From NCBI RefSeq assembly GCF_020520425.1, contig NC_079488.1, positions 86,905,285-86,969,284 on the forward strand: a stretch of 64,000 nt of DNA, written 5' to 3'. Position numbers and translations under genes: made by a program. Shown piece by piece: positions 4,501 to 61,329 of the stretch. Source of the DNA: Spinacia oleracea. Its lineage: Eukaryota > Streptophyta > Magnoliopsida > Caryophyllales > Amaranthaceae. Under the pieces are notes generated by a model that worked only from the letters and a program-made list of their open reading frames with translations, did not search any database and was not told where the DNA came from. How positions within the stretch are numbered: position 1 is the first letter of the stretch; each line of letters opens with the position of its first letter.

Positions 4501-7326
4501 TGTGCCTCGCCTAGAACTAAAAAAACGCTTACCCCCTATCGCCTAGGGCTTAGGCGCGCTTTAGGCACACGTTTTTGTATACCAATATAAATGAAGATTC
4601 TACTCCTTTTCTATGAGGAACTAGGGGCGTTGATTTCTTTGACTTTCTTATTGTGTAGGGTGTCTACTGTGCATCTTGTTAGTGATCCTCTTTGTGCATA
4701 CTGATTTGAATGGTTTTTTAGGTGTTGAGAAGTTTGGGTAATCTTGTTGCTGGTGATGCGAATTTAGCTTCTACAGTTCTTGTCGCTGGAAGTGAAGTTA
4801 CAGGTTGGAATCATTTTCATTACCATGGAAAAGCCCCCCACCCCCGGTTTGTCAACTGTATTTTGGATTAAAATATCATGTTTGGTATTATTCACAGATA
4901 AAGTAATAGCCGCTCTTTCTAAATGCCTCGGGAGTGAGCACCGTGTGCTTAAAAAGGTTTGCATTCTAATGCAAATGCTACTTCCTCTATGTAGTTTTTT
5001 TTAGCTTGTTTTCCCTTTCTGCGATGACTCTGATTGTTTACTTGCTTTAGAAACAATCAATAGTGTTCCTTCTGTTTGATGAATTCCTATGTAAATGTTG
5101 CTTTTGGCATCAGTCATCAAGGAAATGGGGTCTGATGATTCTCTTCATTTGATGGTCTTCACATACTTGGTCTCGTGAGGATCTCTTTCAAGAGATTGAA
5201 AAGTTTTGTGGTGGTTGTTCTCCTAATTGGCTAGCCAGTGGTTAGGTTGGGGGATTGAAGACTGGAGGGGGGGGGGGGGGGGGGGGGGGAGAGGGTTGTT
5301 AGCCTTGCTAAGTCGATGAAAAAAATAGAAGCTTATTCCTCTAAAAGAGGAAACTTCAAAACAGGGGAGGAAGAAACATCTGTAACCAAAAAATATCCCA
5401 CAATGAACAATTAGGCAATCCTAGGATTATTGTTCAAAATCACATAGAACAGTTTTCCTTTCACAATTTAATCCCCCTCTAATCGTACCTTGATATGGTA
5501 ATTTCCCCCCTCCCACCCCCCGACATGTGATTTGATGAAAACTCCTCTTGCCGCTCCAACAGCTCACACTTCCTCTTACAATTTTCAATTCACAATTTTT
5601 ATCCCCCCTCTGACATGAAGAGTTTGAAACTCTCCTCCGACATTCTCTAATCTCTATCACATAGAACACGGCTCACGCTCCAAATAGACGCAACAAAGTC
5701 CTTTCGAGATCGTCATGTGCGATTAGCTTTGACGCCACAAGGTCATTGCGTCGGGCTACATAGGTAGCAGCCCCACTGCTTATTACTGCGTCCCTGAAAG
5801 ATTGCTCTATTAAAATTTGGGTGTAGAATGTGCACATGGTTTGGTTAAGTGGTCCCTTGAGGAGAGAGATAGAGAAAAACCAAGTGGGAAAAGTTACTAA
5901 ATGAGGTATGGGGCAAACAAATAGGGACGTCCAGAAAAGGAATTTGGGGCAGTTTTTGGAGGACTGCTAGTTAGTGATGAGATATTTATTAAAAGATGCT
6001 TCATTATATGACATTTAGGAGTAATTGAAAAAAACAAGAAGTCATACTCCTATTACAATGTAGTTTTCCCAGTTTTTTCTTTTTTTAAAAGCTGGAAAAT
6101 ACCTCGTACGATTTAATGAAAAGAAGCAATTAATGCATTGAGAGATAATGCTATAGTCGTCATTTTCAATTGTATCTAAATGGAAATTGTGAAATAGAGG
6201 GGGTATTTATGTTCCCAAAGCCATTGCTTGAGGGTGAAAATAGTTCTTGCATTATGCTGATTAGGATCTCTAATATTCATGTTATGTCAAACCATGCAAT
6301 GAAATTAGGAAAGGGAAGTATATAATATTTAGACCGACATTTGCTTCCTAACATATAGTAAGAAAAACTGATTAGATTCATGTAAATAGCTCTAACAAGG
6401 TTTTACACTCTTGTAGGAGGCTGCATGGATGCTTTCTAATATTGCAGCAGGTTCCACTGACCACAAGAAATTAGTGTATTCAAGTGAGGCCATACCATTG
6501 CTATTACATCTTCTTTCAACTTCACCATTTGATGTAAGGAAAGAAGTAGCCTATGTCCTTGGTAATATATGTGTGGCCCCAGCAGAAGGTTCTGGTAAGT
6601 CAAGTCTGATCGTGGAGCACCTGGTTTCATTAGTTAGAAGAGGATGTCTTCCCGGTTTCATTGAACTTGTCCGATCTGCCGATATGGAGGCTGCGAGAAT
6701 GGGTTTGCAATTTATTGAGCTGGTGAGTTCATCTCAATGTTAGCTATTATAAACTTTTGTGACACATGTTCCTTATTAGTTTAGTTTTATTTTCTGTCTC
6801 TTGTCTGTTATGCCCTATGATTGCTTCTTCATATTGGAACATGTAGCCTGATATTTCATTAAATTCAATTGAGGAGTAACCAATGGCATCAAGTAACAAA
6901 AACACCTTTCTTAGGGTGCATCTCATTCTAGGTTATCAGCTAAATATAAACGTTGTTTGTTTGGGTTTTCCCTTTACCATTCTGAACTATTGTGGTTCCA
7001 ATGCTTTGATATCTGGTCTTTCTATGGATTTTCCTCCTTGTTTCCTTGTGTCCAATTAGGGAACTCCCTGGTGGGCGCTTCTAGCTGGTCGATTCACCGC
7101 CTTGATTTGCTATATAAGTTTATAATATATCTGAATGTTTCCTTGATTTGTTTGTTTATAGGTATTGAGAGGAATGCCGAATGGCGAGGGACCGAAGCTT
7201 GTTGAAAGCGAGGATGGCATTGAAGCCATGGAACGATTTCAGTTTCATGAAAATGAGGACCTCAGAAATATGGCAAATGGCTTGGTTGATAAATATTTTG
7301 GTGCGGATTATGGGCTTGAAGAATAG
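1513..7326 (+). CDS. IMPA9: Importin subunit alpha, IMPA-9 type, C-terminal half (6 exons visible)
   Basis: Nuclear import adaptor: armadillo repeats bind nuclear localisation signals and hand cargo to importin beta at the nuclear pore. The visible exons are 1513-1592, 2816-2966, 4722-4803, 4898-4956, 6417-6722 and 7162-7326; all junctions have GT/AG and keep frame. The translation has ARM-type helices (VLRSLGNLVAGD; EAAWMLSNIAAGS, where importin alphas keep W and N of the NLS groove; KEVAYVLGNICVAP) and ends MPNGEGPKLVESEDGIEAME ... FGADYGLEE-stop, the C-terminal signature of the divergent plant IMPA-9 group. Upstream exons lie beyond the left edge. Introns are swollen by a MULE-like element (190-1468) and hAT-like elements (3436-3896, possibly 4390-4575). 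Function comes from the family; the gene looks intact in this part. Confidence 0.93.
3436..3896. mobile_element. hAT-like MITE with 8 bp target duplication
   Basis: A 461 bp element in an importin-alpha intron, flanked by a perfect 8 bp duplication CATAGAAT (3428-3435 and 3897-3904). Termini are inverted: CTTAGTTTTAAAAAGCGCG at the left, and at the right the reverse complement reads CTTCGTTTTAAAAGGCGCG. Subterminal sequence is rich in GCGCTT/AAGCGC words, which is typical of hAT termini. No coding capacity. The 8 bp duplication is the hAT hallmark. Confidence 0.82.
4390..4575. mobile_element. Possible short hAT-like MITE rich in GGCGC/GCGCC words
   Basis: A GC-rich island in an AT-rich intron, packed with GCGCCTAGG-like words and with inverted CGTGT/ACACG near both ends. 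Possible imperfect 8 bp duplication AATGTATA / TTTGTATA. Weaker than the element at 3436 because the duplication is not perfect. Confidence 0.4.
5267..5289. repeat. G homopolymer (23 G)
   Basis: An uninterrupted run of 23 G on the plus strand inside an importin-alpha intron. Possible quadruplex former, and a likely sequencing or assembly slippage site. Confidence 0.95.
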
Positions 7327-46099: not shown

Positions 46100-47010
46100 T
46101 TAACAGTTGCTTCTGGAGTTTGTTTTTCCTACTAGGTTGTTACTTGGATTATGGATGGTTTAATATCCGTCTCTTATTCTTTCAATGTAAACGGGGAGCT
46201 CACTGAACCTATTAGAGCAAAGAGGGGGGGGGGGGGTAGACAAGGAGATCCAATCTCACCATACTTATTTGTTTTAAGTATGGAATATCTTAACAGGTGC
46301 CTAATGGCTTTGAAAACAAATACAGAGTTCAGATTTCACCCTAGGTGTCAGAAACTCGACTTAACTCATGTATTCTTTGCAGATGATATTCCTTTATTTT
46401 CAAGAGGTGATATTGATTCAGTGAGGCACAAGTTCAATATATGCGTTTTCTATTTTCTCTGAATCCTCTGGTTTGAAAGCTTACCATTCCAAGAACTCCA
46501 TTTTTTTTTGGTGGTGTTCCTCATCATATGAAGGATGACATTATTACGTTGTTTAATTTCTCAACAGGAGAGCTTCCTTTTAGGTACCTTGGGGGTTCCT
46601 TTGTCTACTAAAAAGATTATTGTCATCCAATGGCAACCCCTCATACGGAAGATCTTGCAACGACTTGAAAGCTGGTCTGCCAAGTTACTCTCATATGCTG
46701 TCATAATTCAATTGGTAAAATCTGTGGTATTTGGGATTCAAAGCTATTGGTGCCAAGTGTTCCTTATCCCCAGGAAGTCCTAAAAGTAATTCAAGCAGCT
46801 TGTCGGACTTTTGTGTGGACTGGGAAGTTGGGCGCTTCTAAACGAGCTCTGGTTGCACGGGAAACTCTTTGCTTACCGAAGGCTGCAGGTGGGTGGGATT
46901 TAATGTGCATTAAGACCTGGAATAAGGATGCACTCTGCAAGCTTCTTTGGAATTTGGCCCAAAAGAAAGATAAAGTTAAAAGGCTTTATTGAATTATACG
47001 AAGTAGAAGG
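46100..47010 (+). pseudogene. L1-type LINE reverse transcriptase, piece 1 of a shattered element
   Basis: Non-LTR retrotransposon ORF2 remnant. MDGLISVSYSFNVNGELTEP, then RQGDPISPYLFVLSMEYLNR and the catalytic box FADDIPLF (normally FADDLLLF). After frame changes it reads SFLLGTLGVPLSTKKI and RKVLKVIQAACRTFVWTGKL, ending LLWNLAQKKDKVKRLY. A 12-G tract (46225-46236 region) replaces the usual GLRQG codons. The 5' end is truncated. The same ORF resumes at 57819, 58449, 61330 and 62275, between later insertions. Confidence 0.88.
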
Positions 47011-48446
47011 TGTGAGGGGGTCGAAAAAGCACGAGGCTAATGCGTGACCTCGTCCCTCGTGGGTGTGACGATTCTTTTTATTAAATCAAGTGTAATTGGA
47101 TTTCCTGTGAGTTTACACCCAATTGACTAGTAATATAGGAGTCGCCATTCAGTTTTTAACGACAATGAGAAAAAGTGACAAAACCCGGTTATCGTGACAT
47201 AAAGGGAGTGCAATTATGTTTGACCACGACGGCCGTAGGTTCCCTTGTGATCCCTGGTGTGGGGATCTCTCAACATACACCCGCAAGGTAGAGATTGAGG
47301 GTTCGGGGGACTGTAACTACCGAGAGGAGTACTTCGCTCGTCGATAACTCCAGAGGCAGGATATCCTTACTAGCTCAGCATAAATAATTGAAGGGACATG
47401 CGTTAACTATTAAACTAATCTGAGTTGATTTTAGCAATATGCAACATATAATACTAATTCGATCGTGATTATCTGATTTAAATAGCATTAAGGGACCTAG
47501 CATGATAATCCGATTTCCCAAAAATATTATATTTGTTAGGCGTGATAGAACAATCAGATTTAGGTTAGTTTAACAGTTCATAAAAAGGGCGAGGAAAGCA
47601 GTTAAATCATCGAAAAGGGACACGTTACGACGCACCCTTGAGAGGTGCGTCACGGTTCTCAGAAAACTAACCACTTTGACTTTGCTATTTCTCCTTTTTA
47701 TTTAAAGAATCTCAATTATGGGACAGGATACGTTCTGTTCGATTTATGGATCGATTGCGACAGAACGCGTGAACAGTTTCGCAGCGAGAGGCTTAGGCTA
47801 AGGGTTGGAGTCAATACTCAGAATATAATTATGTGTTGTTGTGTGTTGTTTTCACGTCGAATTTAGGGGCCTATTTATAGGGAAGAGTTCGTGGAAAGAT
47901 AGAATTGCAGAGTTCTAATCCACAAAGAATTAGGAAAAAACACGTACCCAGGTATTTTCAGCGCCCAGAGCCAGGCGTTGAAAATAGGGTCTGGGCTGTT
48001 TTCTTTAGTCAGATTCGGATTCCCGAAATCCGTAGAGTTTGAGATTAATTCGAGTCTTTTAGCGCGTATCAATTTTGTGACGGAATGCGTCTGGGCCCGT
48101 TACGAACTCTAGGCTCGTTAGGATTTCAATTAATACGTAACTCTTATTTCCGAATTATATTAGGAATAGGATTCTCGCAGTTTTCTATCTCATTTAGGAT
48201 TTATGTTGGAATGCAACACCTAATTCTGACAGGTTTCTATCTTTTATGATTTTCCACTTTTAGAAACTACCTTTTACGGCAGTTACTATTTTTAGCAGGT
48301 TTCCATAAATAGCAGGTTTCGGGTGAAAATGAAATGGGGAATCGAGATTCGTTTATTTTATAGGAGATGCGTCGTCAAGTGGAGATTTATGCTTTCATCA
48401 TCGAACCTTTCCCTTTCGGGAATGGGGACAAAAGTAGGTGTCTACA
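47011..48446 (-). repeat. LTR (left; 3' LTR on the element's minus orientation)
   Basis: 1436 bp, TG...CA ends (TGTGAGGGGGTCG ... GTAGGTGTCTACA). Contains one palindromic module (AGCGCCCAGAGCCAGGCGTT near 47960), where the right LTR has a longer version. Confidence 0.95.
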
Positions 48447-48462
48447 GTTAGCCCCCACTTTG
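48447..48462 (-). promoter_or_regulatory. Polypurine tract
   Basis: On the minus strand AAAGTGGGGGCTAAC lies immediately before the 3' LTR (TGTAGA...), the expected place for plus-strand priming. Confidence 0.65.
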
Positions 48463-48796
48463 ATTGAGTCTTGGAGTAAGACGATGGTCAAAGTATTAGA
48501 CGGAGTGCGTCACACAAGCCGTGGTGTATTGTGACCTGTTTTGCGAGGGTCTCACGAGCCCCCGAGTGATAACATTTGACTTAAGGGTCATCACTTGAAG
48601 TGTCGACATATCCCTCACGTGTCATTGGGATTTGTCAACTGATAGTATAGAAACTTCCTCACTTTGTCATTGGGAGTAGCTACAGATGTTTTTGAAATCA
48701 AAGCTATAAAGTGTAATTGGGCCTGGCCAAGCCCAATCACGAGGTAAAAATGTTTTTTAAAGATTCTCATTTTCAGGGTTAGCTAAACGAGAAAAC

Positions 48797-48922
48797 CCCC
48801 TTGTTTTTATAGGACGTAAAACGAAGGAAAATCCAGCACCCTTGTTTTTATAGGACGTAAAACGAAGGAAAATCCAGCACCCTTGTTTTTATAGGACGTA
48901 AAACGAAGGAAAATCCAGCAAA
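48797..48922. repeat. 41 bp tandem repeat, three copies, in the LTR element
   Basis: Unit CCTTGTTTTTATAGGACGTA, AAACGAAGGAAAATCCAGCAC, three near-perfect copies, near the element's 3' end. Tandem repeats in this position are known from Ogre/Tat elements. Confidence 0.9.
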
Positions 48923-48939
48923 AGTTATCGCTGCAGCGA

Positions 48940-49435
48940 CTAAGGACCTGCGCGGTTTAATGGCGCAGACCCCGCCGGCTAAAGATGGCGAGCCTGTCCG
49001 CTAAGGGTGGACACCCCGTCCGATAGAAGTGGACAAATCTGTTTTTGAAATTTGAAAATAAGGACCTACGCGGTTCGTGGCGTAGACCCCGCCGGCTAAA
49101 GATGGCGAACCTTGTCCGCTAAGGGTGGACACCCCGTCCGATAGAAGTGGACGAATTTATTTTGAAATTTGTTTTGCTTTTTTGAAAATAAGGACCTACG
49201 TGGTTTGTGACGTAGACCCCGCCGGCTGAAGAGGGCGAGCCTATTTTAAATTTGAAGACTTTATTTTTCGAAAACTGAGGACCTGCGCGGCTAGTGACGC
49301 AGACCCCGCCCGCTGAAGGTGGGCGAGCCCTGTCCGCTAAGGGTGGACGCCCCGCTCGCTGGAGGTGAGCGAACCTGAATTCGTCTTTTCGATTTGGATT
49401 CGTGTGCCGCGATCTTGCCCGTTTGAGGTGGGCAA
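48940..49435. repeat. ~120-130 bp tandem array with short hairpins
   Basis: About four diverged units containing AAGGACCTGCGCGG...GGCGCAGACCCCGCC and GTCCGCTAAGGGTGGAC. Each block is itself a small stem-loop (GTCC...GGAC; GCCCGC...GTGGGC), giving a string of potential hairpins. Confidence 0.8.
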
Positions 49436-49859
49436 GTCCCTATTTCATTTCTTTTCTTGTGATTTCTTTTGAGAATTTCTTTTCATTTATTCTTGCAGGA
49501 GCGAATTCTTTCGAGGGATGCTCGGATTTAGTTGCAACCTGAATGTGGGTTGACAACATTCTTAGACGGACCATTGTCTTGTGGTCATCATCCTTTATGG
49601 TTTTGAGTTAGTCCTTACGGCTCAATTTTGCCACTACCTGGGTCCTTGATTAGGGGACTATGTATAGGTATCAACGGCGACCTTTGTCTTGAGGTCGTAA
49701 ACCGGTTTATTTTTTATTCTTTGAGACATCCAAACACGGGACTTCGTATAGCGTAGTCTGGGAATATTTTTTTTAACTTTGTATACTCTATATTTTCTTT
49801 CGAGCCCCCAAGAATTCGTTCTTGACGGTCATTTCTTGTTGAAGAGGTTCCTTGGGGAT

Positions 49860-52800
49860 ACGCATTTCGTAATGTCCTTGATCGTGTTTGGGATTGCGCT
49901 CGTAAGTGCGAGCGATCTTTGTAGTGGCGTGCTACTTTTAACAAAGCCGTGAGGTGCGACTTTCGGCAATTTTAAAGTCGAAGGAATATGGCAGGGCCCT
50001 ATAGAAGTCAGAAAGGGTCTGGGATCATTTTCGGCGCCAAAGCCTGGGCGTTAAAGATTTCGGCGCCCAGCGCTGGGCGCTGAAAATAATTCCTGGCGAG
50101 TTTTCTTGATGACACAGTTGGCCTCTTGTTCATTCGTTTATTTCACTTGGAAGTTCTATGTATTCTCTTCTCTTTTGTTTTTTCTTTATTTTTAGAACGT
50201 GATGATTTTCTTAAGAAGCTGTAGCCGATTGGTGGACTACGGCGCTTGTCTCTTTGGGGCGATTATTTTATGGAACTGTTGCTCTTTAAGGCGTACAGTT
50301 ATTGCAACAGTTGGGCGAGTCTATATGGCCCGAGGAACATACCTTGAGGCGTAAGACTTTGATCGCTCTTGTATATATATTTTTTTTCTTTTGAATGCGT
50401 TCGTGAATGATGATATGTATGTGCGAACGAGTGTTCATAGAATGGCCGTTGTGTGCGGTCCATTAATCAGTTTGCTTGAATCATATTTTTTTGAGCAATG
50501 ACTGATTCTGAATAGTTTGCTTAGAAGCTTGATAGGGTTTAGGCCTATTCATGAAGCTGGCTCAAACATCGTACCCTTTCGATTGTTCAAACATTTGCTT
50601 TTTCGATTTTTTATTTATTTTGCTATAGTCGTTTCGTAGCTTGGAGCCCCCAAGTATGCATGTTGGGATGCTTCCTTTTGGCGTACGATTTTTGTAGGTT
50701 CTTTTGAGAAAGATGCCTTGGGGTTCCACTCGTGTAGGTGCGAGCTATCCCTTCCGTGGTAGGTAATGTTTTGCTACTTTTAATCCTTAATATGGAAGTA
50801 GTGTGGCTTGCATTTTGAATTTGGGCGATAAGTAGTCTTTGCCTCTTTTACACATGCTCTTGGCCGTGCCTACATTAGTGCAATATGCCTTACTCTCTTT
50901 TTTAGACTTGTACTGTGGGATGGTTAAACTTTATGGTGCGACATAGGCTTGTGTGGCCTAACGGTGTGTCTTAGAACATTCCTCCAGGTGTTGGGATATC
51001 ATTTTTTTTTTTGCATTGGAGTACTTCATCACGCCTTGTTCAGGTGCTCGAACAAGTGTAGCACCTTCTGTGTGGGTTTGCACGGCTCATTACTTCGTTC
51101 GGCGCGAGGATTCATTGGTGTTTCTTTCTTATTTTTATATCTGGGCAAAACTTGGCTAGCAGAAAGAATCAGCGCCCAGGCTGGGGCGTTGAAGATATCG
51201 GCGCCCAGCTCTGGGCGTTGAAAATGATTTCTGGGCAGAGCTTTGACAGTTTTTTTTTGATTTTTTTTTCTTTCGCTTTTGCTTTGGAACGAGGTAGACT
51301 GTGTAACGGGCGCTTGTAGGGCGAGCGTTATGTGCAGTAGTTTGATCGGAGTTTTGGTGACTCGCAATTTTCAGTTACCCTTGTTAGTGGGGTAACTTTA
51401 TATATTCTAAGTAGCGCTTAGAATCTGGGAGGGGTTGTAGCCATTCTAAGGTTCGTTTTACATGATTAAATCTTAGGATTGTGCCCCTATGACATATGTA
51501 TAGCATTAGCGTCGAGAATTTGCGATGAAATCGTCATTTCGAGCATTTTTAGAGTGTTTTTCTCAAGCCTCCAACTGTAGCTACGGGATTGACTTGGGGC
51601 TATAATGCCTTGCATACGTCTTTATGCATTCATGGTGACATGGATCATGAATAGTTTGAACCAGACTCGTTTAGTGCGAGGTACGTTCGAGTAGTGATTT
51701 GCTACTTCTTTTGTAAATGTCGTATTGTGCGACATTGCCATGGTCAAGGTAGTCACATGTTGAAGTGTGCCTTGACCAAAAGCTAGGTGCCTTTCTTTAC
51801 CCATAATCATATTTAGAAATCTTTTTTGACTCACTTGCAACATCGAAGATAAACACATACTTAGCTTAAACCAACGACACTTTATTATGTTCGAAGAAGT
51901 CTTTTGAAAATTATTTGAAATCCGAGTCCTACTGTGTACAATCCGAGGTGCCCTAAGTAGGTTGACTTATAGAAGGGTTCGTACAGGATTACATGAGTGA
52001 ATCAAAATACTGGTACGATTTTGGAATGTTGTCTAAGGATTTGCTGGAAGCCAGGGTGCAGGTGTCAAGATATTACTTGTGCCCGTTTGGCATATGCTTT
52101 TAGGCGTTTAGGGCCATCTTTTCCAGAATTGCGGGAATATAAACCGTTTTCAAATTGACTTAGATTTACTTGGTGTATGTCTGCACAAAAGGTCAAGGTA
52201 TACTTAGTTCTTTCCCTAGCTCTTTCATTTCAATTTTTTTTAGCCCCCAGTTGCTATTATGTCTGCCCATTAATGATGCTTTCAGATTTCGATTTTAGAT
52301 GCCCGTGTCATATGTCTGAGTAGGGTGAGCCTTGGTTAAGTGCCAAGTCCTATTGACAATGTCTAATTTTTTCCAAAGGGGATTCGCAAGCATTTGAATT
52401 ACCATGAACGGGTGCCCTGAGTTCGAAGGAACGATGGGGCGATGCCGTAGAACAATCCTCTTTATTGCAAGCTTACCGCCTTTACTACTTGTTGGCGATC
52501 ATGACTGTGTCTAGTGGTGAAAGAAGGTCTTTAAGCGAACGACTAGGTCTAGTGGTGAAAGAAGGTCTTTAGGTGAGTTAGTTCGCTTTAGGGAGGTTCA
52601 AGTCGAGTACTTTAGAGGTCATGGACGCTTGCGCTAGCCCCCATTCAATTGAGGCAAAGCGATCTTTTGGGTCTTGGCTAAGTGCCTAGGAGTGTGAGTG
52701 CTCCTTCCGGCAAGGGTACGTGCCCTTATTATTTTTCGATGTGTGCTCATTAATTTTGGCATCTTGATGACTTGGATTCTTCTTTTGACTTAAATTTTTC

Positions 52801-55545
52801 TTTCGACTTGGGTTGCAAGTAATTAAATTTCAATAAGGGACTTCTATTTTTATTCTTGTTTTTCTATAGGCTTTAATATTTTTGCAAATTGGTTGGACCG
52901 AATCATGGATTGCCTACGTATCCGCCTTAAATAGATTTAATTTGGAATCAGGTCTTGCGTAGTTCTTAGCCTAGAAAATGGTTTCATAGAATGCCGATTT
53001 TAAACAAGTATGTTCTGAGGTGGAAACATATTATTTGAAACGGTAGAATAAGTGAAGTTTATTATTATTTAAATCTGCTGCCTTGCCGTAAGCCAAAAAA
53101 TTTGTTTTATATTTTTGAGTACATGTATTTTCTTTTCATGTGTTTTTTGGTACGTATACCTGAATACGTGTTGTACCCCTCCAAGTGTTCGTTATTTTTC
53201 CGTGCATGTGCGGATAAAATGACGAGCACTTCTGGACAAATTTTTCAGCAAGCAGAGAGATTCGGCGCCCAGGCTTGGGCGCTAAAGATTTCGGCGCCCA
53301 GCTCTGGGCGCTGAAAATGGTTTCTGGGCGGATATTTTTTGGTGCGCTAAATGCTTCTTTATTTTTCTTTTTAGACTAACTTTAGAGGCGCTTTTGCAAA
53401 GTTTCTTTTTTATTATTCACATTTTATTATTATTTTTTTGCACTTTTCATTTGTTTCCTTTTTTTTTGTTTGTGACTCAAGACGGATTGAAAGATGGGTT
53501 GAATGAGATAGGAGAATTTGTATAGGTGTTGGTCAAGCATGAAGATTATATCTGCTAGGGCTCACAATTTGCAGCTTCGTGCTAGTGTCACGAGTTTACA
53601 TCAACCAAGGCCAATGAGCAGCATGGGGACGGCTCAAGGGTATATCAACATGATGTATCCACACAAGTTATATGGTCATTATGCTAATGGTGGTATAAGA
53701 GCAGGTTTTGGAAATAAGGGGTATGACGCACGTGTCAATGGCCGTGCGTGGTTTGCGGTTGACAACGAGTTCAAGAACAAGAGTCGAGGTAATGGTTTCT
53801 TGGGTCATGGCAATGAGAACATGGATAGGTTAAAATGAGCTGAACAGGGACCCCAGAGCGAAGGCGTCTAAGAGCATAAGGATTGGAAAGGGTAGACATC
53901 GTAGAATTTTATGATTTGGATTGGTTGACTCAATTCTTTTCTTTCGTTTACTTAGGTAAATGTTGCACTACGGGATAAGTATTCTCTGGCTTGCTCTTTT
54001 CGCTCTCCCTTTTCTCTTTCTATTTTTTATTTCTTTTTTCTTGGGATTCCTCCCCAACAAAAATTCTTCAATTTTTAATTTGGGCGAAAAGGTAGATGGT
54101 TGTGGTCTTTGAGTCACGAGGCGAGACTGAGTGAGCCTCGTTTGGTAGGCCTATAGTGGACCTTTAATTTTAGTAGGCCTAGGGTGGACCTTTAAATTGT
54201 CTTACTTTGCAAGCGTATTTAGTCGTTTCTTAAAATATGCAAATAACGTAGATTCAAAATGTTGTTTTTACCTTATTGAATTTTAACGAAAGAATTACAT
54301 CGAAAGTAATTTTTTGTTTCTTTTCAGATTCCAGTTTCTGGGATTTAATTGGAAGTTGTGATTTAGACTCAAACTTTCATTAATCTTTCTGATTATAACC
54401 CGTGTATGAATACAAGGAGGTGGCCTAGACTCAAAATAATGACGTGGCGTAAGCCTATAATACTTGACCAAGCAACTCTCAGACTTAGGCTAATTGGACC
54501 ATAACTTTCGTTGGTTGACACTTTAGATTTTAACCCTTGGGTGTTCATTTGTCATGCGCCATTTTGTTTAATGTTGGCAAGGTAGTTAATTGGGGAGATC
54601 GAATTTTTATTTTTGCAAGACTAGAATCATTAGCACGGCTTCTCTCTTAGTGTGTATTGCTTTACCCCAATGGTAGCCCTATTGGTATGCCGATTTGGGT
54701 ATTTTCATGGTTGGTCATGTTGCATTCATGGAAAATCTTTTAGTCCGTACTTAATAGTATTTCAAGGAGTGAGTGACTCGAGAGGACTATGATAGTCGTG
54801 ACCCAATGTGATCATAAGCCTTGAGGCCATTAATTTTTTGCCAATGGTATTGATACCTTAGGTTCACTTTGGAGGTTGTGCGACTATGGAGGAATGATTT
54901 TCAGAATGTGACTGTTTCCATTTTGCAAATACTATAATATATTCTTTTATTGGTGAGAGAGAATATTAAGGCCGTGGGTTCTTAGGAAGGGATGACAATT
55001 ACATATGGGTGCTCATTGATTTAAATGTTAGGAAGGGAGACTCAATATGGTTTAACCTTTTAACTTGCAGAACGACACCAAGCATTAGGACCGATTCTAT
55101 GGATAAGACAACTAAGACTTAGGATTTAGATTGTACTTTGTCATAGCCTAGTCTAGACTCGGATTTACTTATTTTTCATTTGAACATTTATTTTTTTCTT
55201 GAAGACTTTATTCGAACATTATTTTTTGAATACTTTGCCCATGTGACACTCAAGGTCGTTTAATTAGCATGCTCGGTTTTGGTGCCGAGCATTGTCGTCG
55301 TAGGAGGCCTAACAACGACACAAGGAGTTATTTATTTTTTACAAGTCGCTTTTAGAATCGAGTGCCTTTTCATACGCCCTCACAGCAATTTTTTCCGAAA
55401 AGTTTTTTTTTTGCTACGTATTTTTTTCTTATGCGCGGGCACCGAGGCTGTTGTGCCTGACCAAAAGGCCAGGCAGCAACTTCAGCGCCCAGCAGTGGGC
55501 GTGAGAAATTTAAGCGCCCAGCCAGGGGCGTTGAAAATGCGTCCC
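49860..55545. repeat. Diverged internal repeats and palindromic GGCGCC modules of the LTR element
   Basis: Paired palindromic modules (CGGCGCCCAG-C-CTGGGCGCTGAA type) occur at about 50033-50092, 51169-51227, 53262-53318 and 55480-55540, and in both LTRs. Separate hairpins of type CTCGTNNNGTGCGAG recur at 49897-49914, 50728-50745 and 51665-51681, each followed by TAGTG...TGCTACTTTT. The internal region thus looks like old, diverged tandem units rather than decayed gag-pol. Confidence 0.7.
53515..53885 (+). pseudogene. Captured fragment of a YTH-domain m6A reader gene (ECT type)
   Basis: Open frame with SLHQPRPMSSMGTAQGYINM, MYPHKLYGHYANGG, GYDARVNGRAWFAVDNEFKN and RGNGFLGHGNENMDRLK. One base out of frame it continues NELNRDPRAKASKS. 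This order matches the region just before the YTH domain in plant ECT (YTHDF-like) proteins, which bind N6-methyladenosine in mRNA. The YTH fold itself is absent and a single-base shift at 53836-53840 ends the frame. The fragment is antisense to the LTR element, so a full-length element transcript would be complementary to ECT mRNA. Confidence 0.8.
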
Positions 55546-55763
55546 TGGCTGGTTCTCGTTTTCTGTTTGCGTCTACTTTTGTTTATGCGACTTCAATTTT
55601 GCGTGCTTGCCTAATAACGTCCTTTACGCGTTGTGCAGCGTTTGTGGGATTCGTTACGGCCATCCCGAGCGTCGCTTATTTTTGTGGCGATCGTTCGGGC
55701 TTGCGGAACACGTATTTTGGTATAACTCTTTGGCCAATTGGTTCATGAATGTTTGGGCAATTT

Positions 55764-56039
55764 TTAAGGTCGTTGGTTTTCTAGCATTATTTGTCTAGCA
55801 TTATTCGTACGCACAATCATAACATAGTCACCTAGTTCGCTACATATAACTACATTACAAACATGGATTTGAAAATTAAATATGTCACGTAGTTTATGAT
55901 AGGCTTCTATGGGTAGTATTTGCGCCTGGCTTGGTACCGCTTCTATCGTAGATCCAACACATGCCCCGGTCGAGGTAGTGTCTTCAACAGACGAATTTCG
56001 CTCAAGAGGCCAACCCGCAAGTGCAAGCCAAGGGGGCAT
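55764..56039 (-). other. Unidentified ORF next to the primer-binding site
   Basis: 91 codons on the element's coding strand: MPPWLALAGWPLERNSSVED ... IDLF-like text absent; middle LPIEAYHKLRDIFNFQIHVC. It lies ~290 bp downstream of the primer-binding site, where gag would begin. No Gag zinc knuckle or other domain is visible. It could be a gag relic or chance. Confidence 0.25.
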
Positions 56040-56328
56040 GCAGGCGAGAGGGACCTAATGAGCGAGCGATTGGGTTCGGGATAGGTGTACTACCTGCACA
56101 AGTACCGAGTGGGCAACATGCGCGGCGTATGCACCCCCCTATTGGGGAAAAAAGGTATCCTTATTCCCAACTCCCGAGGGAGCCGAGATTCGTTATGCGG
56201 TTCTGCCCGTTCACATCAATATGCTGATTTTCAGGTCGTCCCAACTTGATGGGGAAATAAACGCGGGGTAGGATCGTTTCACCCTTCGGCTATTTTGATT
56301 ACCTACAAGCACGAGTATTTCCTTCACT

Positions 56329-56347
56329 ATCCCCAGTGGAGTCGCCA
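56329..56347 (-). promoter_or_regulatory. Primer-binding site, tRNA-Arg type
   Basis: The plus strand reads ATCCCCAGTGGAGTCGCCA, identical to what I recall as the 3' end of plant tRNA-Arg(ACG) with CCA. On the minus strand this is its complement, one base inside the 5' LTR, as required for priming. Confidence 0.85.
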
Positions 56348-56348
56348 C

Positions 56349-57813
56349 TGTGAGGGGGTCGAAAAAGCACGAGGCTAATGCGTGACCTCGTCCCTCGTGG
56401 GTGTGACGATTCTTTTTATTCAATCAAGTGTAATTGGATTTCCTGTGAGTTTACACCCAATTGACTAGTAATATAGGAGTCGCCATTCAGTTTTTAACGA
56501 CAATGAGAAAAAGTGACAAAACCCGGTTATCGTGACATAAAGGGAGTGCAATTATGTTTTACCACGACGGCCGTAGGTTCCCTTGTGATCCCTGGTGTGG
56601 GGATCTCTCAACATACACCCGCAAGGTAGAGATTGAGGGTTCGGGGGACTGTAACTACCGAGAGGAGTACTTCGCTCGTCGATAACTCCAGAGGCAGGAT
56701 ATCCTTACTAGCTCGGCATAAATAATTGAAGGGACATGCGTTAACTATTAAACTAATCTGAGTTGATTTTAGCAATATGCAACATATAATACTAATTCGA
56801 TCGTGATTATCTGATTTAAATAGCATTAAGGGACCTAGCATGATAATCCGATTTCCCAAAAATATTATATTTGTTAGGCGTGATAGAACAATCAGATTTA
56901 GGTTAGTTTAACAGTTCATAAAAAGGGCGAGGAAAGCAGTTAAATCATCGAAAAGGGACACGTTACGACGCACCCTTGAGAGGTGCGTCACGGTTCTCAG
57001 AAAACTAACCACTTTGACTTTGCTATTTCTCCTTTTTATTTAAAGAATCTCAATTATGGGACAGGATACGTTCTGTTCGATTTATGGATCGATTGCGACA
57101 GAACGCGTGAACAGTTTCGCAGCGAGAGGCTTAGGCTAAGGGTTGGAGTCAATACTCAGAATATAATTATGTGTTGTTGTGTGTTGTTTTCACGTCGAAT
57201 TTAGGGGCCTATTTATAGGGAAGAGTTCGTGGAAAGATAGAATTGCAGAGTTCTAATCCACAAAGAATTAGGAAAAAACACGTACCCAGGTATTTTCAGC
57301 GCCCAGGCCTGGGCGCCGAAGATTTTGGCGCCCAGAGCCAGGCGTTGAAAATAGAGTCTGGGCTGTTTTCTTTAGTCAGATTCGGATTCCTGAAATCCGT
57401 AGAGTTTGAGATTAATTCGAGTCTTTTAGCGCGTATCAATTTTGTGACGGAATGCGTCTGGGCCCGTTACGAACTCTAGGCTCGTTAGGATTTCAATTAA
57501 TACGTAACTCTTATTTCCGAATCATATTAGGAATAGGATTCTCGCAGTTTTCTATCTCATTTAGGATTTATGTTGGAATGCAACACCTAATTCTGACAGG
57601 TTTCTATCTTTTATGATTTGCCACTTTTAGAAGCTACCTTTTACGGCAGTTACTATTTTTAGCAGGTTTCCATAAATAGCAGGTTTCGGGTGAAAATGAA
57701 ATGGGGAATCGAGATTCGTTTATTTTATAGGAGATGCGTCGTCAAGTGGAGATTTATGCTTTCATCATCGAACCTTTCCCTTTCGGGAATGGGGACAAAA
57801 GTAGGTGTCTACA
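56349..57813 (-). repeat. LTR (right; 5' LTR on the element's minus orientation)
   Basis: 1465 bp and nearly identical to the left LTR. The extra ~29 bp at about 57304-57332 adds a second palindromic unit (GCCTGGGCGCCGAAGATTTT). Confidence 0.95.
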
Positions 57814-57818
57814 GAAGG

Positions 57819-57845
57819 CACAAGTAAACGATCATCACTAAGATA
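57819..57845 (+). pseudogene. LINE piece 2
   Basis: Short stretch between the LTR element's right duplication and the next insertion; CACAAGTAAACGATCATCAC gives VNDHH in the LINE frame. Confidence 0.5.
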
Positions 57846-58450
57846 AAATTTTGTTAGATTCCGAAGTGAGGGAAGCTAAGTTGCCCCTCTCTCCCTCTCT
57901 CCCTCTTTTTAGGGTTTACAAAAATTAGGGTTTTCTAGGGCGGAAATAGCCAATTTTCTTCGGAAATTTGGTTATTTCCGCCCCTTCCCTTTCAATTCGT
58001 TGTGTTTTTGGTTAGATCTCAATAAAACCACATAGTTTCATTGTGGTAAGTACCCCTATGATGGGTTTGATTGTTTCGGTGTAATAAGTACCCCAAGGTG
58101 GGTTTGTTTTTAGTTAAGTTTTGTGTGTTTAGTTTAGTTCAGGTTGTTTCTTTGGTAAAGATTTATGCGGGATCGAAGAGAATGTCAATCTTTCGACTAC
58201 AATTATCAGACGGAAATCATATTTGTCACGGCTACAACAGATCTATAGACCCCCTCGTCATTGAAGGATGTAAATCGCAGCGATATAAAAGAGGGTATAC
58301 AAAATGTTTGATATACTACGATCGTAGCTATGGTGAAAGGAAGTTTTTATTTGATTCGATTGTTATGTATTTGTTAGATTTAAATCTTTATGTAGATGTC
58401 GTATGACTTTTTATCAATGAATTAATTTGTTTTATCAAAAAAAAAAAGAT
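57846..58450 (+). mobile_element. Poly(A)-tailed retroposed sequence inside the LINE
   Basis: About 600 bp ending in an A-run (58438-58448), flanked by AAGATAA (57839-57845 and 58446-58453, overlapping the tail), as made by LINE-type retrotransposition. The start is leader-like (CTCTCTCCCTCTTTTTAGGG). An imperfect inverted repeat GGCGGAAATAGCC / GGTTATTTCCGCC is at 57938-57983. An ORF (58071-58406) was not recognised. It could be a processed mRNA copy or a SINE. Confidence 0.5.
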
Positions 58451-58664: not shown

Positions 58665-61329
58665 TGTAACGCCCCGACCTCTAATTCACATAATTAAGCA
58701 GCGGAAACATCCTAATTCGGTCGGGACATTACTGCCGTAACTCCCTCTTGGGAATTACAAGGCAACATCATAACATAAGCCATTAAACCTCCAAATTAAC
58801 ATAAAAATCCTTTTAATTCCATAATAAAAGTTCATAACTTACTAAAAGTATTTACTTAAACTATTATAACATTAAACATTAACTTAGGCGAAACATTGCT
58901 GTAGTGAAAATCCTCGCCACTATTCGTTTCCGTTGACCCCAGCAGTACCTAAAACAGAAAACAAAACGGTGAGCCGAAGACTTAGTAACGAGCTATTCTA
59001 GCATCGTAACATCATTTCAATTCATTTAATTTAATAAACAAGAAGAATAGAATATAGTAAAACATTTAATAAAACATCACATCAGAAACATAATTTCAGA
59101 GACATCATTTAGAAACATCGTCTCTTTAATCTTTTTCCTTTTAACGGTATTTTTCTGGTCATCAGGACTTTACAGAAAAATATGGTAGGACGTCTCCTAC
59201 GAACAAGGGAAGCCAGTGCTTCATAACAGGGGGAGCCTGGGCTGCATAACAGGGGAAGTCAATGCTTCTTATCAGGGGGAGACTTGGTTCCATATCAGGG
59301 GAATCCAGTGCTTCATATCAGGGGGAACCTTGGTTCCATATCAGGGGAAGCCAGTGCTTCATATCAGGGGGAACCTTAGTTCCATATCAGGGGAAGTCAG
59401 TGCTTCTTATCAGGGGGAGCCTGGGCTCCATATTAGGGGAACTTGACCAGTTCTTACACTTTCATTTATCATGTTTACATTTCTTTTAATGGAACATTAA
59501 TCAGGAAAATCTCATTCATTCAGGATATTTCAGTAAACCATTAAATCTCGTTATTTCATAAAATTATTTCTTTCAGTAATAGTAATTCATCAAATCAATA
59601 CTTTTCATAAAGTTGCATCATCATAAGACAATTCAATCAAATCATACTTGTATCCCAAAAATCATAAAACAACATTATAAAATATCAATCGTAACATCAT
59701 TCGTGCATAAATTCATTTCGAAAGGATTGCGGGTACTAGCAATATTTGTTACCTCGATTAGTAGTTTGGTACACCTTTTCTTTAGCCTTTGATTATTTTC
59801 CTTCCCGAGCTCCGAGGGTCGAGATCTTTTAATATATTTATAAGTACGATTTCAATTAGTAATTTTATTTTAGTAAAACCAATAATTTAAATATGTTTTC
59901 TTTTAAAAAGGATAATTAGTAATTATTGAGTAATCATTAAAATTCATAGTATAATAATAATGTTAAAGTACTTTAATTAATTTTTTTTTTTATAAAACAG
60001 GAATATTGGTTCCCAAAATAAATGTAGAATTTTACATATTTCATTAACATAAATAAAATAACTAAACATGTAGAATTTGAAAATGGAATAACTTACCAAA
60101 CTGAAATAGGAATTGGGCCAGGATGTAGGAGTTGAAAGAAGCCCAAAGTTCCAAAATGGAACTTAATTCCTGGCTTCCTGAAACGCAAGGCAACCAGAGG
60201 CAAGGAAGAGTGGGGAAGCAGGGGCGCACGAGGGGAAGGACAACAAGGGGACAACGGTCAGGCGGTGGTTTGCGCGGCTTAGCGACGCAGCAGAAGCAAC
60301 ACGCTAATACGGCGGCGCTGATGGATGGGCGCGGAGGAGAGGCTTGGCGCGGAGGAGAATGAAGGCAGGGGAGGCGGCAGAGAAAGGAGAGGAAGATGGG
60401 CGAGCAAGGGCAACGATTATGGTGGTCATTGGTCTGAAATTGACGGTGGTTGTTCGTGGTGGTTTCCGGCAGGGGAAAAGGTCGGTGGTGGTCAATGGTG
60501 GCGGTGGTGTTGGCGGTTTTAATGGTGTATGTGGTGATTCAGTACTGAAATCACAAGAGTAAGAAGGTGAGGAAAATTTAATGAATTTTAATGGTGAAAT
60601 CCGAAATTGATGGTTGTTTTTTTGCTTGAATTTTCGGTCTAATTGAGAAGCTATTTATAGCAATGGGGAAATGTCCATTGATGTATGCAGTAAGCTCATT
60701 TGCAAGTTTTGGGATGACAAATGTCAAGAGGGATCAAGAATATGTGACTAAGGCATTTAAATTTCAGATTAGCGTCCATGAATTGATGAGTCATTTTGAC
60801 AATGAAAATGGTGGTGACAAATGGAAAGTGGAGTTTTGACTTCATGGTTGAAAGAAATGTCGTGAAGGAGAAGAAGGGGAGATGAAGAATCTGACTTTGT
60901 TTCTTGGATAGAACAAGTGCATTTTGGTAATTATATATTATTGGACAATTTTCAGAATTTTATTGCTATTTTTGGATTTGGAAAAGAAAATAGAAAAATG
61001 ACTTTGAGTAAGGTTAATTTTTAAAATAATTCCTTTTATAAAGTGATAATGAAGTAAATTTAGTTTTCGAATAAAATTTATCGTAATTCGTAAGTAAGAA
61101 TCTTTTATAAATTAGGAAATATAATTTAAAATGTAACTAAGCTTGTAATATGAAATTACATTGTAAAATCTGGAAAAAAAATAGATCGTGTAAAAATATT
61201 GAAATTCTCATGTCAAATAAAATTTTCGTTAATAAAAAATAAAGTTAAAAATTAGGATTTAAAACGATTGTAAGCTAATAAAAATAATTAAGCATAATTA
61301 ATCGAGTTTTAAAAATTCGGGGTATTACA
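58665..61329. mobile_element. Solo LTR-like element (2.67 kb) with internal minisatellite
   Basis: Starts TGTAACGCCCCGACC and ends TCGGGGTATTACA (TG...CA with short inverted ends). A 5 bp target duplication TGTGG (58660-58664 and 61330-61334) is present, and the LINE frame resumes exactly behind it (DIPNV - WVG). No internal coding domain or second LTR; best read as a solo LTR of a Ty3-type element. Gly/Arg-rich frames at 60132-60560 reflect biased composition. Confidence 0.78.
59205..59450. repeat. Minisatellite with ~60 bp unit inside the solo LTR
   Basis: Alternating AGCCAGTGCTTCATATCAGG and GGAGCCTGGGCTCCATAT / AACCTTGGTTCCATATCAGG half-units, about four copies, each half ending in CAGGGG(G). 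Produces spurious ORFs in two frames. Confidence 0.9.

Follow-up and report, generated by a model that had tools for sequence, protein, structure and literature searches.

A stretch of 64,000 nucleotides of the spinach (Spinacia oleracea) genome (NC_079488.1, positions 86,905,285 to 86,969,284 of the forward strand), referred to here as the window, contains a long terminal repeat (LTR) retrotransposon inside which a spliced piece of a host ECT/YTH gene, encoding a reader of N6-methyladenosine (m6A), lies in antisense. The element spans 47011-57813 on the minus strand (10,803 bp) and has two LTRs, a target-site duplication, a primer binding site (PBS) and a polypurine tract, all of which place it among the LTR retrotransposons. 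The 5' LTR (1465 bp) occupies 56349-57813 and the 3' LTR (1436 bp, without 29 bp found in the 5' LTR) occupies 47011-48446, both on the minus strand, and the same five bases, GAAGG, stand on either side at 47006-47010 and 57814-57818. The PBS (TGGCGACTCCACTGGGGAT, 56329-56347, minus strand) was recognized by tRNA complementarity and pairs in 19 of 19 bases with the 3' end of a tRNA-Arg(ACG) of the host genome plus CCA. A polypurine tract region (AAAGTGGGGG on the minus strand, read from the sequence) adjoins the 3' LTR at 48447-48470. Between the two LTRs there are 8 substitutions over 1436 sites and a single gap of 29 bp (K 0.0056). Rates of 1.3e-8 to 7e-9 per site and year turn this distance into an insertion age of 0.2-0.4 million years; judged by its LTRs, the insertion is young, as had been claimed.

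The original prediction, which was made from the letters and a list of open reading frames (ORFs), described the element as nonautonomous and of the Ogre/Tat type. A Pfam search of all six frames of 48448-56346 (E 0.1, stops read as X) gave no match, and 10 of the 19 ORFs of at least 70 amino acids, searched singly in Pfam, gave one sub-threshold match to Patched (E 0.013). Rfam gave no match over 46900-57900, and no reverse transcriptase or aRH domain was found in the element. Because no recognizable gag-pol was found in the internal region, as an autonomous element would have, the element is nonautonomous. Its group is less firmly fixed. Ogre itself is primed with tRNA-Arg. The tRNAs used by non-chromovirus elements include Arg (PMC6317226; this and the other papers with PMC numbers are cited for excerpts of their text), and the PBS thus fits the Ogre/Tat group, a fit that is consistent with membership and not diagnostic of it. 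Of the gypsy lineages in spinach, Ogre/Tat, or Ogre, has been described as the most abundant (PMC6337768; PMC7840529). Three consecutive tRNA-Arg(ACG) genes are situated on C1 near 133.79 Mb (L071, 1448-2849), and the same three are found in L072.

The captured piece covers 53550-53882 (333 bp). Its sense lies on the plus strand and the element, by its PBS and polypurine tract, on the minus strand, which confirms the antisense placement. An open frame had been reported at 53515-53885; such a frame is present and the piece lies within that range, which begins 35 bp too early, since 53515-53549 is element sequence. A donor ECT locus was sought in the host genome assembly (894,210,420 bases, 242 contigs) and found. 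A genome search with the Pfam YTH family returned 15 matches, corresponding to about nine genes, and ten stretches around YTH genes were taken for comparison with the fragment. One of these host YTH genes, in L029 (G000:C4:97500-105500), is the donor: blastn aligns the fragment to it at 90.2% identity over 297 columns (E 6e-114), together with 41 bases of the preceding exon. Because this gene was located by a separate search for the YTH domain, the match is not circular. The next-best match inside the fragment among the ten stretches was L032 for DNA (E 0.011) and L027 for protein (36% identity), and blastn of the whole element against the same stretches (E 0.001) matched in the two exon pieces only.

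In the donor, exon A ends at L029:5295 (..GTCATG) and exon B starts at 6069, with a GT-AG intron of 773 bp (GTACAT..TTGTAG) between them; the donor exon stretches concerned are L029 5253-5295 and 6069-6360. Across the corresponding junction (53592-53593, plus strand) the fragment has GTCACG/AGTTTAC, and the intron is cleanly absent, so the source of the capture was spliced. Against the intron-removed donor, 305 of 329 aligned bases are equal, with 10 gap columns and K 0.077, or about 4-5.5 million years at the same rates. The YTH domain of the donor exceeds the Pfam cut-off, is situated downstream of the captured stretch and is of the YTHDF type (best Protein Data Bank match YTHDF2, chain 4wqn, E 9e-49; YTHDC2, 4.5e-11), in line with the predicted origin from just upstream of a YTH domain. 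The captured peptide itself gave one chance-level match in the Protein Data Bank (E 0.51), and neither it nor the window frame matched any Pfam family. By these alignments, the fragment is a piece of the spliced mRNA of one host YTHDF/ECT-type gene. The ECT frame that had been proposed is recognizable, but in the window copy it is broken by one extra A relative to the donor in the run at 53832-53835 (plus strand), which is also seen in L002-L008 and L049.

The fragment is repeated throughout the genome. An exact 26-mer spanning the exon junction occurs at 233 places (120 and 113; reversed control, 0). With up to 3 mismatches allowed, a 35-base exon B probe occurs at 2,989 places (1,498 and 1,491; control, 0), among which the donor itself is expected. 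A flanking 26-mer from window position 54505 occurs at 2,124 places. As copies chosen by flank rather than by fragment, the first 20 of these in genome order were read, all of which lie within 8.3 Mb of the start of C1. The objection that the fragment might be found in no other copy does not hold, as 18 of these 20 carry it at the same site; the other two (L041 and L050) have larger deletions across the site. Four base differences from the present donor are common to all 19 copies (the 18 and the window), and a 3-base length difference to 18 or 19 of them. The shared site and the four shared differences argue for one capture. In 4 of the 18 copies (L036, L037, L044 and L046) the left 46 nt of the fragment are lost; this loss lies between two TTACATC-like repeats and removes the exon A part. 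In L006 (1-1498), the left part is swapped at window position 53513 for another repeat, whose similarity to a stretch close to the L030 YTH gene is 85.6%.

Places without the insert locate the breakpoints. A search for the closed-up site found 1 place exactly, 18 with 3 mismatches and 41 when a second spelling was included (controls of the mismatch searches, 0). The empty loci read number 13 and stand for 12 distinct places, as two come from the same one. On the left, agreement of the empty copies with the window extends to 53547, and on the right it resumes at 53873; in most rows compared, the two matching parts overlap by 12 bases. The insert is thus flanked by AGCATRAGGATT twice, exactly at both breakpoints. 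The left copy of this near-repeat (53536-53547, plus strand) reads AGCATGAAGATT in the window and AGCATRAGGATT in other copies. The right copy (53873-53884, plus strand) reads AGCATAAGGATT, the first 10 bases of which also occur in the donor mRNA. Exactly at the breakpoint the donor mRNA has AGCATAAGGA and the element AGCATRAGGA, so that about 10 nt are common to the two; 9 of 10 bases match the empty site at 2 of 79,501 positions in the YTH loci, one of which is the breakpoint itself. The near-repeat and the shared nucleotides together may be read as the signature of a template switch. In a tree of the right flank, 10 of the 12 empty places fall together with L045 in one group (support 0.95). 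L045 is the sole filled copy in this group, and its fragment, at 94.9% identity, is nearer to the donor than that of any other copy read. Over this flank, the mean distance within the ten empty places is 5.1% and within 17 filled copies 5.6%, compared with 6.5% between the two sets. Three more of the 41 places, which were left out of the trees, resemble the empty group, for example L067, which is 93.8% identical to L061 over 2,833 columns.

These results suggest that the fragment probably stems from one antisense capture by template switching, followed by amplification as a non-coding passenger. An ancestral nonautonomous, tRNA-Arg-primed LTR element would have been undergoing reverse transcription when polymerization switched onto the spliced mRNA of the host ECT (YTHDF-type) gene, guided by the approximately 10 nt common to element and mRNA. 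About 333 nt would have been copied before the enzyme was back on the element at nearly the same point. Since the fragment is antisense to the element, the simplest route would be a switch during second (plus) strand synthesis, with the sense mRNA as template. A reverse transcriptase would need homology on the 3' side of the captured mRNA in order to move onto it. The daughter element would then have been amplified to thousands of copies, in which the ECT piece may have been carried as a non-coding passenger, any antisense or small interfering RNA (siRNA) effect on the donor being a by-product. We infer reverse transcriptase as the agent of the switch, the strand under synthesis at the time and the lack of a selected function; the donor, its splicing, the orientation, the shared site, the microhomology, the copy number and the neutral-looking variation are observed.

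Several points weigh against this origin. Much the same junctions would be left by a first-strand switch onto an antisense ECT RNA and by break repair with ECT cDNA, and loss of the insert through a deletion from one 12-bp repeat to the other would produce a closed site just like that of a place that was always empty. Two of the empty places, L054 and L064, nest among filled copies and probably arose by such a deletion. In the right-flank tree the empty group includes filled L045, and the left-flank tree, for which only L058 and L062 of the ten empty places were long enough, puts these two among filled L034, L035 and L045. Because the copies recombine, the trees are weak, and as they stand they do not appear to settle which state, empty or filled, came first. 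Finally, the ratio of nonsynonymous to synonymous polymorphism (pN/pS) among the copies is 0.75, not 1.

The source being spliced, and either orientation being possible, would equally suit a processed ECT retrocopy of the long interspersed nuclear element (LINE) type, or a cDNA patch at a DNA break, that entered an element copy and was then amplified with no template switch. Such an origin seems unlikely, as poly(A) is absent, an internal piece only is present and the repeat at the ends is also found in the donor mRNA, unlike a target-site duplication.

The proposal of template switching followed by passive amplification agrees with the variation among the copies. In copies chosen by the flanking word, pairwise diversity is 8.0% in the fragment, 10.7% in the left flank and 5.9% in the near-right flank, which sits close to the word used for choosing the copies. 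Compared with flanks of about 300 bp, the fragment shows 8.4% against 8.9% (p 0.62 with sites treated as independent), and greater conservation than in the fragment is seen in 40 of 72 sliding windows. The ECT frame contains stops in 11 of the 19 copies and, when frame-changing indels are included, is broken in 15. Between copies and donor pN/pS is 0.43, a value that includes selection on the gene. The fragment thus appears to have no coding role and to be under no visible constraint. A special conservation of the fragment (0.33% compared with 4-5% in the flanks) was considered on the basis of seven copies (the window, L002-L005, L007 and L008), all picked by fragment identity, and was dropped because the effect is missing in the copies picked by flank.

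The element family might act in trans, its ECT antisense RNA pairing with the mRNA or feeding siRNA production, so that the m6A reader is lowered and the element benefits. The antisense orientation and the 2,989 probe places count in favour of this, as does the potential for pairing: of the 313 21-mers in the window fragment, 45 have a perfect match in the donor mRNA, and in the donor 259 of 335 positions lie under a perfect 21-nt match from at least one of the 19 copies. A control of retroelements by m6A has also been proposed (PMC9289625, in the excerpt cited). However, conservation of the fragment does not exceed that of its flanks, the 19 copies are just 89-95% identical to the donor, and we regard an action in trans as improbable. 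It is a still longer shot that the thousands of copies constitute an antisense reservoir whose siRNAs damp one ECT gene and thereby loosen host control of m6A-marked retroelement RNA. A regulatory reading is therefore unlikely on present evidence; the neutral-looking variation would lend siRNA effects no support, yet is compatible with them. It is scarcely credible that the captured piece has been kept up as an antisense frame comparable to the extra ORFs that Retand carries in antisense. Four of the 19 copies are free of stops and frame-changing indels, which would favour such a frame, but the other 15 have one or both, pN/pS among copies is as given above, the window frame has no Pfam match and the piece does not qualify as a conserved antisense ORF of the Retand type.

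Capture of host genes by plant LTR elements is known from maize Bs1, rice and sorghum (PMC7264820; PMC13317346). Transduced genes are usually oriented as gag-pol, and the opposite orientation is called unusual in the excerpt cited (PMC7264820). The spinach element resembles Bs1 and other transducing LTR retroelements in that host gene sequence is contained inside an LTR element, but differs in that the piece is antisense and present at thousands of places. In orchids, Ty3/gypsy elements that carry an AlkB m6A-demethylase domain (PMC9289625) likewise combine m6A machinery with plant gypsy-type elements. The orchid domain, according to the same excerpt, is encoded by an ORF whose protein is active in vitro, whereas the spinach element carries a short reader piece, antisense and broken in most copies read, and no recognizable gag-pol. 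Retand, with its antisense TRP28 ORFs (PMC11963269), shares antisense extra sequence inside Tat-group elements. In Retand these ORFs are described between pol and the 3' LTR (PMC11963269); in spinach the host donor is known and no ORF is kept. In BARE-2 and Veju, too, a foreign template was joined in by reverse transcription through abnormal template switching (PMC13317346). BARE took in another retroelement and Veju an unknown sequence (PMC13317346), whereas the spinach case involves a spliced host transcript with readable microhomology. Among the matches listed in a search of the open PMC literature (titles and abstract openings), no report of YTH/ECT sequence in a plant retroelement was found. 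The capture is thus distinct from known ones as a reader fragment that is antisense, spliced, non-coding in most copies read and present at about 3,000 places.

A single genome here offers the donor gene, insert-free relatives and breakpoint homology for an antisense spliced capture, which bears on the uptake of host sequence by LTR elements in the orientation opposite to their own. Through this family the genome is filled with sequence whose transcription could give RNA antisense to the donor ECT gene, and the approximately 3,000 places offer a direct way to ask whether gene pieces captured in antisense yield siRNAs against the donor m6A reader.

Further repeats were observed in and near the element. 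A GC-rich motif of about 90 nt (GGCGCCCAG..TGGGCGC) has four copies in the element interior (50017-50106, 51155-51244, 53248-53337 and 55468-55557) and one in the right LTR (57282-57371). It also matches in inverted orientation, and 29 bp of it are missing from the left LTR. A tandem array at 48798-48920 consists of three exact copies of a 41-bp unit, and a second array, with 23-bp spacing, lies outside the element at 59158-59441. Adjoining the element, at 46136-46992, are open stretches that, read by eye, resemble the reverse transcriptase of a non-LTR retrotransposon.
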